A stretch of DNA of 64,000 bases from Spirochaetales bacterium (GTDB lineage Bacteria; Spirochaetota; Spirochaetia; UBA9216), in NCBI GenBank assembly GCA_016839055.1, contig JAEKNX010000001.1:1-64000 (forward strand), written 5' to 3'. Under the pieces are notes generated by a model. That model was not told where the DNA came from and made no database searches. It saw only the letters and a program-made list of their open reading frames with translations. Positions 78-6,615 of the stretch are shown here, one piece after another (within the stretch, counting starts at the first letter, position 1; each line of letters starts with the position of its first letter). The position numbers and the translations under genes were made by a program.

Positions 78-727
78 GAAGAACCTACGGTTCTTCACGT
101 CGCAGCCCAGGCTTTTTTTATTTTTTCAAATCATAGCTTAATCCCTTGCCTTATAATTTATGGATGTTTTGGCATAGCCAAAACTCCAGAGGAACCGCAG
201 GTTCCTCCACCCGCCAACGCGATAAGCGTTACATCCCTGTTTGACATACACCAGAACCAAAAACTCACCTAAAGCCCCGGGGGCACGTTAAGCCATATAG
301 TCTGACCCGAAAAGTGCAGATGAAGTAGAAGCGAAGCTGAAACTTCATTCGAGTAGGTGGCAGGTTTGCCTTTGGCAAACTGCGGAAGAACCTACGGTTC
401 TTCACGTCGCAGCCCAGGCTTTTTTTATTTTTTCAAATCATAGCTTAATCCCTTGCCTTATAATTTATGGATGTTTTGGCATAGCCAAAACTCCAGAGGA
501 ACCGCAGGTTCCTCCACCCGCCAACGCGATAAGCGTTACATCCCTGTTTGACATACACCAGAACCAAAAACTCACCTAAAGCCCCGGGGGCACGTTAAGC
601 CATATAGTCTGACCCGAAAAGTGCAGATGAAGTAGAAGCGAAGCTGAAACTTCATTCGAGTAGGTGGCAGGTTTGCCTTTGGCAAACTGCGGAAGAACCT
701 ACGGTTCTTCACGTCGCAGCCCAGGCT
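78..727. repeat. Perfect 307-bp tandem repeat (two full copies plus the start of a third)
   Basis: The segments 78-384 and 385-691 read as identical, and 692-727 repeats the first 36 bases before diverging. Each unit holds, in order: an 8-bp stem with loop TAC (gaagaacc/ggttcttc, 78-96), a T-rich stretch, an 8-bp stem with loop ATA (166-184), an 8-bp stem with loop GCA (189-207), a short aacgc/gcgtt stem (216-230), an imperfect stem at 321-347, and a 7-bp gtttgcc/ggcaaac stem with loop TTT (364-380). No credible open reading frame is present. Identity over 307 bp implies a very recent duplication or ongoing homogenisation. An assembly artefact is possible. Confidence 0.9.
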
Positions 728-1525
728 AAATCATTTTTTCAAATCACAGCTTACAATCAAACATTATTACCAAATAATTGCGTGGCTCTTTTCCGCAGGA
801 AAAGGTCAGAGCAACCACAGGTTGCTCCACCCGCTAACGCAGAACGCGTTGGAACCTAATTTGACGCCCTATCACCCTGAAAAGCGGTTTACCCGCGGGA
901 CAAAGTGGGTTATGAACCTTACGCCAAGTAACCCAAGAAAAGCGTTTTAACCCCAGATAAGCTGTATGGACGTTCGGATGCAAGTCATGGCTCTTTTCCG
1001 CAGGAAAAGGCCCGAGGAACCAAAGGTTCCTCCAAACTCCAGAGCAACCGCAGGTTGCTCCGTCATCTGAGCAATCAGAGATTGCTCCACAGGCTTTTTT
1101 TTATTTTTTCAAATCACAGCTTACAATCAAACATTATTACCAAATAATTGCGTGGCTCTTTTTCGAAGAAAAAGGCCAGAGCAACCTGTGGTTGCTCCAC
1201 CCGCTAACGCAATAAGCGTTATGAGGAATCTTTGATTCCTCCACCCTGTTAGATGCACTAATGCCGTGAAAAGCGGTCTGTCGCGGGGCACAGCTTCAGC
1301 CTGTAGTTGATCTGAGAAAACAATTAAACCGCTTTTGATTCCAAATAACCTAAGTGGATGTTTTGGCTTCGCCAAAACTCCAGAGCAACCACAGGTCGCT
1401 CCGATATCGCCAAGCTAAATCATTTTTTCTTTTTTAAGAATTACTTTATAATCCCACATATCATTACCTTATAATTACATGGCTCTTTTCTGAAAGAAAA
1501 GCCAGAGAAATCTCAGATTTCCTAT
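728..1525. repeat. Diverged double-hairpin repeat units
   Basis: Non-coding DNA built from diverged relatives of the 307-bp unit. A stretch of about 57 bp ending at gcgtggctctt recurs with an offset of 370 (ending at 790 and 1160). A weaker copy ends near 1490. Hairpin pairs lie at 788-804/809-827, 993-1009/1014-1032, 1158-1174/1179-1197, 1360-1378/1383-1401 and 1486-1502/1508-1522, with an extra stem at 1069-1087. Loops are three bases, linkers are about 4 nt (gtca, gccc, gcca, tcca), and the second stem usually begins gag and ends ctcc. Stem sequences differ between units but stay self-complementary. The short open frames here are by-products of the repeats. From 1526 to 1677 nothing is recognised. 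Confidence 0.8.
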
Positions 1526-1774
1526 TACTATTTGTTCCTTAATACTTCGAGTAAAATAATCGTAATGAAATTTAGAATTAGGATTGGGAACCGTATTTGT
1601 GGATAAGGTGTTCGGAAGTATATTTTTGTAAATCAGATTACAGAATTCTTATGGTTTCTTCCTATACTGAATTGTAATGTATATTCCGGTGAAACCGGAC
1701 AGCTGCCTGAAGGAAAAAATCCTCGCTTGCTATTATGAATAGGTGTCCGTTTTGAGTCAATCTATAGCATGCAA

Positions 1775-2488
1775 TTATCTCCTTGCCGTATCTCCATCTA
1801 TATCGATTCGGTGAGAATTAAATGCAATCCGATCGAGTATTGCATCGGCAATGGTGGGATCACCGATGAGTTCATGCCAGTTTGAAACCGGTTGTTGGGA
1901 AATAATCAGAGTCGATTTACGGCTGTGACGGTCTTCAAGGATCTCAAGAAGCGCCATTCTTGCAACCATAGTAAGCGACTCAAGACCAAAGTCGTCAAGG
2001 ATAAAGAGCTTGTATTTCATCAACCGGCCGAGAACCTTGAGATAGGTTCCATCCTGTTTTGCTTCTTCGAGTTCGTTGAATAAGCGGGAGGCAGCCGCAT
2101 AATAAACAGGATAGCCCAGCTGACAGGCTTGATAACCAAGCGCAGTTCCGATATAGCTTTTACCAACGCCGGTAGGGCCTGTAACAAGAACATCCTGCCC
2201 GGTTTTTATCCAGCCGCAGTCGGAGAGTCTCAGAATCTGATTCTTATCAAGCGTTCGGTCGAGGGTGTAATCAATATCTTCTAAAGCCGCATGATAACGA
2301 AATTTTGCAGCCATCGTCAGCCTGTCAAGGCGACGATTATGTTTCTCATCCCACTCTGAATCAATAAGGTAACTCACAACTTCATCGGTTGTGAGATTCA
2401 TATTTTTACCGGTTTCAAGAAGGTTTCTAAATATTCCGTGCAGCCGCATTTCACTCATTTTATTTATTGTTGCCTGATTACTGTTCAT
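1775..2488 (-). CDS. istB: IS21 helper ATPase IstB
   Basis: This 237-residue protein matches the AAA+ transposition helper of IS21 elements, which assembles on DNA and activates the IstA transposase. The Walker A motif GPTGVGKS lies at residues 104-111 and the Walker B segment LFILDD at 161-166. The N-terminal region (MSEMRLHGIF and onward) is typical of IstB. It lies 8 bp downstream of istA and begins with ATG. The length is slightly short for the family but no disruption is seen. Its partner gene is interrupted, so any activity would need an IstA supplied elsewhere or readthrough. Confidence 0.93.
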   Translation of the reverse strand: MNSNQATINKMSEMRLHGIFRNLLETGKNMNLTTDEVVSYLIDSEWDEKHNRRLDRLTMAAKFRYHAALEDIDYTLDRTLDKNQILRLSDCGWIKTGQDVLVTGPTGVGKSYIGTALGYQACQLGYPVYYAAASRLFNELEEAKQDGTYLKVLGRLMKYKLFILDDFGLESLTMVARMALLEILEDRHSRKSTLIISQQPVSNWHELIGDPTIADAILDRIAFNSHRIDIDGDTARR

Positions 2489-2496
2489 GGATGCTC

Positions 2497-4044
2497 CTAT
2501 TTGTAGATGGCGCTATTGCGCAGGTTTTCGTGTGAATCGAAATGAACCATGTTAACTGTTCCCTGATCGATTTTTCGCTGCCTGATGATGTCCTCGAGGT
2601 AAATTTTAATTTCACGGTAGCTTACCCGGCCATAATTGAGTGCTTTCCGGCAGGCATGGTTCAAATCATCCGCATTACTCTTCTTTTCCAGCGATAATAT
2701 ACCCATACATGATTTATATGCCTGCTGCTCGTGCTGTTTGCTCTCAAGAAGATGATTAACTGCGGATAAAACTTCTGGCCCTAGGTTTACTGCCCATTTC
2801 CTGAACTTCTCCCCTGACCAGGAATGATAAAACCGGTGAGTCTCCGGCATATGTGCAGTGGAAGTCGTATAAGTCCCTATTTTACGCTCCCGCCTGTGCT
2901 GTGCTTCGCGTCTGCCGTCTAAATAAACTGCAACGTTTCGCTCATCGTAGATTACTTTGACTCTTTTCCCCTTCAGCTGCCACGGAACAGAGTAATAATG
3001 CTTGTCTGCAGAAAGAATTATATGATAATCAGGCCCAACCTAGTGTGTTTCAAAGTATTTTAGCGGATACTCCTCGGATGGGAGTGTCTTTAACTCATTC
3101 TTTTCAATTTCATTAAACAGTTCACGCCTTGATATTTGCAGTTTTGTAAGTTTCCGGTTATTATGCTTCTCAAGAAGTTCAGCAATTGCCTGATTGAGCT
3201 CAGATAAAGAGTTGAACCTCTTATCATTTAACGGAGCGAAGATCCGCTGGTAGGCAAGTTTAACAGCATTCTCTGCTAGGGCTTTATCTTTAGGCCGATA
3301 TGCTTTTGCGGGTATTATAGTGGTTCTGTAATACTCTGAGAAATCGTTGAACAGCGGGTTCAGCTCCGGTTCATATTTACTTGCCTTCGTTACCGCACTT
3401 TTCAGATTGTCCGGCACCAGTGCTCTGGGGATGCCTCCAAAGTATTTCAAAACCCGTTCTGTTGAACGAATGAACTCTTCCTTTGTCTGGTTGATACTTG
3501 CTTCAGCAAATGTGAGCTGGCTTGCACCGAGTATTGCTACATATACCTCGGCTTCAGTTTCTTTGCCGTTATCATAGTAAGAAATCTTTTGACCGGTATA
3601 ATCTATGAACGCCATGTCGCCTGGTTCGTGCTGCTGCCGCATGGTGAGTTCTCCTGATTTCTGGTAGATATCAAGATGGTGACAGAACTGACTGTAGCGG
3701 TATCCGCCCGGATAGCGTTTAAGATACTTTTCCCAAAGCAGCTGCTTGGTAAAGCCTGTCTTTTTCAATAAGCGGCAGTATTCCGGGAATAGTGCCGTGA
3801 GATTATTATATTGTTCGCATTCCTGCAGCTTACGCTCTTCAAGCAACTCAAGAAGTTCCTCATCAGTTAACGATTTACTTTGTACGTAGTTGAGTCCCGA
3901 CCGTTTAAATCTAGCCAGATAGTCACTGACCGTTGTTTTTGATGCCCCGGAGAGTTTTGCAGTATCTCTGATACTGAGTTCGCTCTCGTACTTCAGTTGT
4001 AGAATCTTTCTTATTTGTTTCAATTGAATCCTCTTTCTTGCCAT
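2497..4044 (-). pseudogene. istA: IS21 transposase IstA, interrupted by an in-frame TAG
   Basis: Reading from ATG 4044 (ggag 7 nt upstream; an ATG at 4071 is also in frame), the frame encodes an IS21 transposase with an N-terminal helix-turn-helix and a DDE core. D148 (in FIDYTG), D212 (in VPDNLK) and E258 (in LAENAV) are present. A TAG codon at 3040-3042 stops translation after residue 334. The same frame continues without a shift for 180 further codons through typical C-terminal IstA sequence (YYSVPWQLKGKRV, HMPETHRFYHSW, ALNYGRVSYREI). This is a single nonsense substitution, perhaps from a Lys or Gln codon. The catalytic triad is upstream of the stop but the C-terminal domain is lost. Confidence 0.9.
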
Positions 4045-4140
4045 GGCGTACTCCAAAAGTTGATTCAACATTCTATGAAGTACACTCGGTTTAATCGAGG
4101 ATTTTTTCTGTCAGGAAGCCATTCCGGAGCTCCGGAATAA

Positions 4141-4235
4141 GTGTCCGCTTTCGGCCGGAATAACTGTCCGCAATGAAACGGAATGTGTGTCCGCTTTACG
4201 CCGGAACAGGTGTCCGTTTTGCTCCGGAATATACA
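4141..4235. repeat. IS21 right-end multiple repeats
   Basis: Four imperfect repeats of about 22-24 bp, each with a tgtccg core followed by a ccggaat-like end, lie at roughly 4141-4162, 4164-4187, 4187-4206 and 4209-4230, ending in the terminal tataca. Multiple subterminal repeats of this kind are the transposase-binding sites described for IS21 elements. The left end shows one good copy (1678-1703) and a tgtccgtttt motif near 1745 in the other orientation. The 112 bp between the IS and the antitoxin gene (4236-4347) show nothing recognisable. Confidence 0.65.
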
Positions 4236-4347
4236 AAAACTATAGGACGGGCTAATCTACGTTAATGCAAACACGGGGGTCACTTCATATTGTCTACACC
4301 ACGCACACGCCATAGTTTAATTCCGTCGGAGTCAAATTAAACGTGAT

Positions 4348-4668
4348 TTAGTGAGTAAGTCTATAGTCTAAAATGTGAGGATCTCTTTTTAATGCATCAA
4401 GAAGAACTCGGGCAGCCCCATTTGGATTTCTTTGTCCCTGTTCCCATTTCGCAACAATTGATTGATTGACATCTAGAATGCTGGCAAAAACAGCTTGACT
4501 AATATTGAGCGAATTCCGGATTGATTTAATATCCTCAGGACTGATAGTAATAGGCTGTGGATGAATACCAAGACGTTTTAGATCTCGTTTGCTGAAAGCT
4601 GTATTTAAACCAATTTGCTCAAGGTCCCTGACGGTTTCTTTTAAAGAGTCCATTGCAGAATTACTCAT
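4348..4668 (-). CDS. XRE-family antitoxin (HigA-like)
   Basis: A 106-residue protein with a C-terminal helix-turn-helix (DIKSIRNSLNISQAVFASIL, then QSIVAKWEQGQRNPNGAAR), typical of HigA-type antitoxins that neutralise the partner toxin and repress the operon. The chosen ATG at 4668 has tggagg just upstream and overlaps the end of the toxin gene by 8 bp, so the two are probably translationally coupled. A longer open frame extends to 4815 but it lies inside the toxin gene and has no better start signal. Toxin-first order is the HigBA arrangement. Confidence 0.88.
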   Translation of the reverse strand: MSNSAMDSLKETVRDLEQIGLNTAFSKRDLKRLGIHPQPITISPEDIKSIRNSLNISQAVFASILDVNQSIVAKWEQGQRNPNGAARVLLDALKRDPHILDYRLTH

Positions 4669-5041
4669 CTTTGTCCTCCAATTCAAAAAATATTTTATTT
4701 TTAATAGCATCAGCCCATTGTTCAGAAGAAAACCCGCAAAGCATTTTTGCAAGTTTCTTATAATCTCGCTTTTCAGCAGCACTAATATTACCCTGATCAT
4801 TTTTAGCAAAACCATGCAAGAATACAGCTAAAGTCCCCTCACGATATACCAAGAGAGTGCGAAATCCACCGCTTTTGCCTTCTCCTTTGCGGGGAACACG
4901 AACTTTGTAGACTGAACCTCCAAGAGCATCTGCACTTTTATGCTCAACAATATTACGTATAGCATTAAGTAGGTCCCGATCGCTTACATTCTCTTTGGTT
5001 GCCCATCTTGCAAATACTTTGGCCTTTAGCTTCTTCACCAT
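4661..5041 (-). CDS. RelE/HigB-like toxin
   Basis: A 126-residue protein of the RelE/HigB-like toxin type, whose members generally act as ribosome-dependent mRNA interferases. Recognisable are the opening KVFARWATKENVSDRDLL, the central GGSVYKVRVPRKGEGKSGGF, and LAVFLHGFAKNDQGNIS. The start is taken at ATG 5041 because family alignments begin there. An upstream ATG at 5056 lies inside the operator palindrome. Codons 2-5 are rich in lysine. The gene forms a two-gene operon with the antitoxin that follows. Full length, with no visible defect. Confidence 0.88.
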   Translation of the reverse strand: MVKKLKAKVFARWATKENVSDRDLLNAIRNIVEHKSADALGGSVYKVRVPRKGEGKSGGFRTLLVYREGTLAVFLHGFAKNDQGNISAAEKRDYKKLAKMLCGFSSEQWADAIKNKIFFELEDKDE

Positions 5042-5044
5042 TAT

Positions 5045-5073
5045 ACTATAGCACAATGTGCTACAGTTTTCAA
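5045..5073 (-). promoter_or_regulatory. Toxin-antitoxin promoter with nested palindromic operator
   Basis: On the minus strand a TTGAAA -35 box (5073-5068) and a TATAGT -10 box (5050-5045) are separated by exactly 17 bp. A perfect 15-bp palindrome, tagcacaatgtgcta (5049-5063), sits in the spacer and touches the -10 box, a position suited to repression by the antitoxin. The expected transcription start (about 5038) falls at the toxin start codon, leaving no room for a leader. Confidence 0.7.
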
Positions 5074-5137
5074 GTTGATAGATACGATTGTTTCTTAAAA
5101 GTTAAAGCTGCCATAAAATTTCTGAGTATAACTATAT

Positions 5138-6523
5138 GTGGGACCACAGCTAAAATCAGAACTGAGAAAGAAGGACCGGGCATATCAGCCCAGGGGTATA
5201 AACCTTCTACAGGAAATATTTGAGCGGCATTTCTCTGATTTCATCACAGCGTATGAGGATGACTATGCTAACCGTTATGGAAAATACCGTCTCGAACGCA
5301 TCAAAACAATTGGAGAACATTTTCTTGCCTGCGGAGATTATTTAAACGGTGTGGCCCGAATCCGCTGTACAAACCCGAAATGCGGTCATGATTACTTCAG
5401 ACCTTTCAGCTGTAAAGGGTTTTATCTTTGCCCGTCATGCAGTCAGAAAAGAACAATACTTATGGCAGAACACCTTACAGAAGAGGTGCTGCTCAGACTA
5501 CCTCATCGGCAGTTTGTTTTCACTTTTCCCAAAGCCTTGCGAGTTTTCTTCCGGAACAACAGAAAGCTTTTTGCTGATATTTCCCGTCTTATTTTCAGTA
5601 TTATCAAGAACTTCTATAAAGAGGCATCTGGAAAAGATATTAAAACAGGAATGGTTATTGCTCATCAGACTTTTGGTGATATGCTGCGCTGGAATCCGTG
5701 CAGTTTCTGCGAAGCAGAAACTGCCAGGGAGTTTGCCTTCGGCAAACTCCACCATTTTCACTGCCTTGTGTTGGAAGGAGGTTTTGATGAAGAGGGAAAT
5801 TTTGTTTTCATTCCATTTTCCAGTCTGCAAAAGATGACAGAGTATTTCAGACGAAGAGTAATTGGTCTGTTTCTGAAAAACAACATGATAAACGGGGGGT
5901 TCGCCAGGAATCTGTTGTCCTGGAAGAACTCAGGCTTCAGTATTGATAATTCTGTGCAGATATTAACTGACAAGGCAAGAGTAAACTTGTCAGAGTATAT
6001 TTCGCGGGCCCCTGTTAGTCTCAAGAAGTTGCGATATGAGCCGTTCAAGGGTAGGGTTCTGTTTCATACCCAATATAATCAGTACTTTGGTGAGAATGTT
6101 CATATGTTTGAGGGATGCGACTTTCTGGCAGAACTGACACAGCATATACCGCCCAAGGGAACACAGTACATACGCAGGTACGGCTTATATGCTTCAAGGA
6201 CTAGGGGGAAATGGCCGGAGCATCCTGAGATTGTCAGACATGCTCCGGAAGGCTGGAAAGCAGCACAACAGACTCTTCCTTTAGAGGACGAATTGCCTGA
6301 AGAGTCTGCATGTGATATTTCTGAAAAGGCAAGCAGGAAAACATGGGCACGGATGATAGCAAAGATATATGAAATTGATCCTTTTGTTTGTCCGAAATGT
6401 GGTTCGGAAATGAGGGTGATTGCAGTAATTCAGAATACGGCTGAGATCAAAAGGATTCTGAAACATCTTAAGAAGGTTGGAAGGCCGCCGCCCGGTGTGG
6501 ATTATACGAAATTATTAGATTAG
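5138..6523 (+). CDS. IS91-like HUH transposase
   Basis: A 461-residue rolling-circle-type transposase. It has an N-terminal zinc-binding domain (C77, C82, C92, C98, C101), the LPHRQFVFTFPK segment, the HUH metal-binding motif HFH (206-208) and a likely nucleophile tyrosine in SEYISRAP (Y287). The C-terminal region contains a CPKCG motif. The start is uncertain: the frame opens at GTG 5138 with no good ribosome site. The segment NP-HFHCLVLEGG, normally contiguous in this type of transposase, is split by 18 extra residues (188-205) encoded by a double hairpin. Downstream lies a tyrosine-recombinase remnant, a partner often seen with these transposases. Element ends were not identified. Confidence 0.88.
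   Translation: MGPQLKSELRKKDRAYQPRGINLLQEIFERHFSDFITAYEDDYANRYGKYRLERIKTIGEHFLACGDYLNGVARIRCTNPKCGHDYFRPFSCKGFYLCPSCSQKRTILMAEHLTEEVLLRLPHRQFVFTFPKALRVFFRNNRKLFADISRLIFSIIKNFYKEASGKDIKTGMVIAHQTFGDMLRWNPCSFCEAETAREFAFGKLHHFHCLVLEGGFDEEGNFVFIPFSSLQKMTEYFRRRVIGLFLKNNMINGGFARNLLSWKNSGFSIDNSVQILTDKARVNLSEYISRAPVSLKKLRYEPFKGRVLFHTQYNQYFGENVHMFEGCDFLAELTQHIPPKGTQYIRRYGLYASRTRGKWPEHPEIVRHAPEGWKAAQQTLPLEDELPEESACDISEKASRKTWARMIAKIYEIDPFVCPKCGSEMRVIAVIQNTAEIKRILKHLKKVGRPPPGVDYTKLLD
5699..5752. repeat. 54-bp in-frame double-hairpin insert inside the transposase gene
   Basis: Two hairpins lie side by side: an 11-bp stem with loop GAA (5700-5724) and a 10-bp stem with loop TTC (5728-5750), followed by cacc. 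Removing 5699-5752 restores aat-ccg-cat-ttt-cac, that is NPHFH, the usual wording of the HUH region. The insert is 18 codons, keeps the frame and adds CSFCEAETAREFAFGKLH. Triloops, the short linker (cagg if the second stem is taken from gag) and the ctccacc after the second stem match the hairpin pairs at 1-1525. Confidence 0.8.
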
Positions 6524-6615
6524 TTTTTCATTCTCTGTACTATGACGGGAGAAGTATGCTTTGAGGATGAAGAAGAATGCGGTTTTAAGGTTTTACGGCT
6601 GTGTATGAGATGTAA

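Follow-up and report, generated by a model that had tools for sequence, protein, structure and literature searches.

A 54 bp stretch at positions 5699–5752 of the window (i.e., the whole stretch of 64,000 nucleotides that was analysed, from a Spirochaetales bacterium) was confirmed to be a clean in-frame insertion into an existing IS91-like transposase gene. The inserted DNA is probably a small non-autonomous palindromic element. It contains two hairpins with triloops, as had been proposed from the sequence alone, and both stems proved to be perfect (Table 1). Folding of the insert region yielded –33.8 kcal/mol (z = –5.35), a stability that was equalled by none of 200 shuffled sequences.

Table 1. 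Coordinates of the insert, its host gene and related features in the window.
Feature	Position	Strand	Basis or remark
Insert of 54 bp, in frame, 18 codons (CSFCEAETAREFAFGKLH)	5699..5752	+	Empty junction in L062; absent in 12 relatives
Hairpin 1, GCAGTTTCTGC-GAA-GCAGAAACTGC, 11-bp stem, triloop GAA, perfect	5700..5724
Hairpin 2, GGAGTTTGCC-TTC-GGCAAACTCC, 10-bp stem, triloop TTC, perfect	5728..5750
IS91-like HUH transposase ORF, 461 aa, bears the insert	5138..6523	+	ORF; Pfam PF04986 and PF14319
HUH motif HFH, first codons 3′ of the insert	5753..5761	+	H206 and H208 invariant (alignment A4)
IS91-like element, approximate extent	5097..6594	+	Limits of DNA similarity to other copies
R1 array (double hairpins of the host), its layout and CTCCACC ending like those of the insert	161..1528	+

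An empty junction in IS91-like relatives

The size of the insert could be set at exactly 54 bp because locus L062, from a different spirochaete genome, directly joins the bases equivalent to window positions 5698 and 5753 (positions 1726/1725 of that locus). At the protein level, the 18 added residues are placed between NP and HFH, immediately ahead of the HUH motif, and are without counterpart in all 12 aligned relatives (39–76% identical to the transposase), which continue without a break from the insertion point into that motif. Despite the insert, the frame remains open throughout all 461 codons, and the product matches the Pfam families Y2_Tnp and Zn_Tnp_IS91. The sequence-only reading, which had proposed 18 added residues in an open frame and had suggested looking for an empty site among relatives, was borne out on these points, while an ordinary family insertion was rejected, with none of the relatives carrying the 18 residues. 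No second full copy of the insert was present among 395 Spirochaetia genomes, i.e., it was found only here. A MITE would have terminal inverted repeats of an IS and a target duplication; no such duplication was evident at the L062 junction or in the pairs of filled and empty copies described below. The insertion had earlier been called recent or tolerated, and may be recent, the grounds being one assembly and the lack of the insert in other genomes. An AlphaFold model of the transposase was uninformative on tolerance of the added loop because of its low confidence (mean pLDDT of 54, and below 50 around the insert).

Elsewhere in the window, an IS21-like element (1775–4071) has an intact IstB and an IstA-like frame that is split into two ORFs (2497–2850 and 3040–4071), and may be inactive because of this split. 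The CGGAAnnnnTGTCCG-type repeats beside it (4133–4247, with a spacing of 23 bp) are probably its end repeats. On the minus strand, at 4348–5056, two small overlapping ORFs resemble, by eye, a toxin and its antitoxin, one partner being a helix-turn-helix protein.

Double hairpins of the host and their likeness to the insert

The double hairpins in the left-hand array of the window and in similar arrays on other contigs (family R1) follow the layout GGN-stem-loop-stem-NCC-A-GAG-stem-loop-stem-CTCCACC. Their stems compensate (98.6% paired, with 19 double-sided changes vs. 8.6 in shuffles; alignment A3). By inspection, the insert shares the order hairpin-CCAG-hairpin-CTCCACC with R1, and the CTCCACC ending that had been noticed as common to both does occur in the array. 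In the host, which was surveyed as a sample of about 0.41 Mb plus model searches, an R1 covariance model built from the other copies found about 39 copies at E < 0.01, mostly within a few arrays, and did not have the insert among its genome-wide matches (150 of 2260 candidates scored). In a local search of 501 bp, the R1 model gave the insert 14.8 bits, on the minus strand. An origin of the insert from the left-hand array is thus not supported by the R1 model, which fails genome-wide and is weak locally, although blastn does find hairpin 2 in the array family, where it resembles the hairpins at C43:2325, C9:3651, and C23:69942. Judging from layout and partial sequence, kinship between the insert and R1 is likely, which stops short of proving where the insert came from.

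Among 248 sampled genomes, R1 occurred in the host's genus only, apart from one match in genome G105 (L231) that was discounted, since it sits in a long ORF resembling a normal UvrB by eye. At the very start of the contig (window 78–684), a 300 bp unit occurs twice with 100% identity and a spacing of 307 bp, and the R1 arrays of other contigs likewise lie near contig ends, probably because such repeats break assemblies. The single hairpins of the insert recur as well: the core of hairpin 1 (GTTTCTGCGAAGCAGAAAC) is present alone at L194, in another spirochaete genome, and the palindrome of hairpin 2 is present twice at L193 (genome G235), downstream from a sequence that resembles a tRNA.

Hairpin inserts at other sites and in other genes

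Hairpin inserts of other kinds, at other positions, are borne by further IS91-like genes. Single genomes hold filled copies alongside empty ones, both among IS91-like genes (L062 vs. L063/L064) and among RHS genes (L179 vs. L181). For spirochaetes generally, the earlier proposal that the hairpins move is supported by inserts at other sites and by empty copies in the same genome. The commonest hairpin element, R2, measures about 42–45 bp and reads CCnGGnTGCATnnnC-GAGCA-stem-3 nt-stem-GACCA-Gnn. Covariation is strong in both of its helices (97.2% paired, with 32 double-sided changes vs. 10.3 in shuffles; alignment A2). Such covarying stems, which keep their shape while their sequence changes, point to recognition of a folded strand. 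In one array of the complete genome G052, adjacent units even have common flanks and unrelated stems. GNA triloops go with unusually stable DNA mini-hairpins, e.g., GCGAAGC, and 14 of the 18 distinct R2 triloops on the box-bearing strand were GNA, while none was TNC. This bias favours a folded DNA strand, and is not proof of one. The R2 model, with its conserved GAGCA and GACCA boxes, did not match the window insert (best score of 2.0 bits). When seven loci holding R1 or R2 were searched against Rfam at gathering thresholds, all matches were to tRNAs or to a group II intron, and none was to R1 or R2 themselves.

R2 was present in 50 of the 248 sampled Spirochaetia genomes (23 of 101 genera), with 58 matches in G052. 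Five of the six matches in genome G011 lie within IS91-like genes and the remaining one in HsdR, from which we infer that these copies look as though they were imported by mobile genes. The HsdR copy leaves the frame open, and two plasmid homologues are without the 13–14 residues at that place; comparison with PDB 3h1t was ambiguous, as 3h1t is long there, and the closer plasmid homologues decided. R2 also lies within an IS5-like transposase gene (Pfam DUF772) and probably within an ABC permease gene, the distant relatives of which are mostly without the stretch. An FGGY kinase gene (L211) is a further candidate case, its PDB alignment beginning beyond the putative insert. A third hairpin class, GGGATCGTTCCTCGC..GCTGCGGTACGACCC, was likewise found in IS91-like genes, at L032 (1517–1562, 42 bp) and at L070 (near 1780–1850, 41 bp, out of frame).

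The host sample holds a single R2 (L047 on contig C9, 9710–9752, 49.4 bits), situated directly upstream of a gene that is hsdM-like by eye, as if brought by a restriction system. In G052, the R2 sequence GAGCAGGCAGCGTAGCTGCCGACCAG of L087 has about ten occurrences including its copies, at least one of them near a group II intron, and tandem hairpin units adjoin tRNA genes at L098/L101 and L107. Clustering of the inserts near the HUH motif is not claimed: 5 of 12 lie within 15 residues of it (p = 0.003), but the p-value becomes 0.035 when each site is counted once.

Seven R2 events in IS91-like genes, defined by site and sequence (L032, L062, L064/L066, L066/L068, L072, L250, and L257), each measure 42 or 45 bp. 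The chance that all seven lengths are divisible by three is 3 to the power –7, or about 5e-4, if the events are independent and unselected. Except for L250 and L257, these events were first found by alignment and then entered the model (five of seven); detection bias is limited because the R2 model, as well as open-frame alignment, recovers copies. Frame-breaking lengths were seen at L070 (41 bp) and in RHS (43 bp), and stops occur inside the inserts at L032, L250, and RHS site 1. Selection favouring open frames is thereby suggested, not proven.

Origin of the insert

Apart from a mobile element, the hairpins could have arisen in place, if replication slippage or template switching had made an inverted pair by copying sequence from nearby or from farther away. 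Consistent with this, the hairpins resemble each other as inverted units (AGTTT..GC-GAA-GC..AAACT), and a second full copy of the insert was not found. Nevertheless, near-identical relatives are found elsewhere (hairpin 2 in the host arrays and G235, the core of hairpin 1 in G058), and the IS91-like gene family repeatedly receives R2 elements that are clearly dispersed, which makes such a local origin unlikely.

The fact that both hairpins have GAA loops, on opposite strands, also recalls an inverted pair of REPs, i.e., a REP or BIME-like unit that a resident RAYT, which is a Y1 tyrosine transposase, would have mobilised, and intragenic REPs are known (PMC3733652). However, neither the host (G000) nor the R2-rich genome G052 yielded a match to Y1_Tnp (PF01797), and window positions 5686–5765 contain no GTAG, CGTC or complement of either, so that mobilisation by a RAYT would be quite improbable, at least in the present host.

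As the insert is known in the host from one assembly, for which no reads were available, an assembly or sequencing artefact was considered as well, but the exact codon junction, the open frame over 461 aa and the comparable inserts in other, independent genomes render this very improbable. A selected regulatory hairpin by which the transposase mRNA limits its own expression would account for the very stable fold and the recurrence of inserts in transposase genes, but is hardly credible given the absence of the insert from relatives, the occurrence of the elements in RHS, HsdR and intergenic arrays, and the covarying stems and GNA triloops that fit a dispersed element.

The small palindromic element that we prefer as explanation may move as a folded single DNA strand. 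This strand would be joined into exposed single strands either through a trans-acting nuclease or through template switching during replication, and the element would persist because the length of the insert keeps the frame open. IS91-like elements transpose via single-stranded rolling-circle intermediates. An IS91-like element might in turn serve both as an exposed target and as a carrier between hosts, and its enzyme is itself a possible candidate for the mover; no integrating enzyme for the insert was identified.

More broadly, spirochaetes would seem to harbour an active class of tiny mobile palindromes about which little is known. A literature search with limited coverage of subscription journals found no description of these hairpin elements. 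We regard as a tentative and rather doubtful extension that Spirochaetia host widespread "shape-only" mobile palindromes, i.e., folded single-stranded DNAs that would be recognised via conserved boxes and stable GNA triloops, have their stems replaced wholesale with pairing kept, travel between hosts inside rolling-circle transposase and other mobile genes, and add short peptides to proteins. To our knowledge, palindromes inserted in frame within genes are on record chiefly from Rickettsia, Wolbachia, and a scattering of REP carriers. Because spirochaetes have numerous copies, more than one family, and both filled and empty copies within one genome, they would be a tractable system in which to learn how such elements move.

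Comparison with known systems

The interrupted gene has the zinc-binding domain and the Y2 transposase domain with HUH motif of the IS91 family, and departs from the 12 aligned relatives in its 18 additional residues. With regard to the insert itself, the mitochondrial double-hairpin or repetitive hairpin-forming elements also have two short hairpins in a row, are dispersed and thought to be mobile, and sometimes lie in genes (PMC2800124). These elements are mitochondrial and not bacterial, and the likeness is one of description only.

GTAG and CGTC REP repeats are small hairpins with compensatory stem changes that are often paired or clustered and sometimes intragenic, and CGTC repeats have been reported in Spirochaetes (PMC3733652). 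The spirochaete elements described here are likewise small hairpins with compensatory stem changes that lie inside genes. In contrast, the insert has neither a GTAG nor a CGTC tag, its kind has triloops where loops of the CGTC families count 4–5 bases (PMC3733652), and no Y1 transposase that could be the resident RAYT expected for GTAG REPs was found in the host or in G052.

Rickettsia palindromic elements are palindromic repeats of about 150 bp that lie in frame in protein-coding genes, have empty homologues, and are moved by an unknown agent (PMC10969869); two of their families bear a CGTC tag (PMC3733652). The window insert is also palindromic, lies in frame in an ORF, and has empty homologues, whereas spirochaete inserts measure 42–54 bp, occur in other bacteria and, in the case of the window insert, are without the CGTC tag. 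Because it has neither tag and is much shorter than the Rickettsia elements, the insert was filed outside both the Rickettsia and the REP families. The parallel with Rickettsia palindromic elements drawn by the sequence-only reading accordingly fails on size and on the CGTC tag, and holds as a likeness in mode of working: the insert would seem to work as those elements do.
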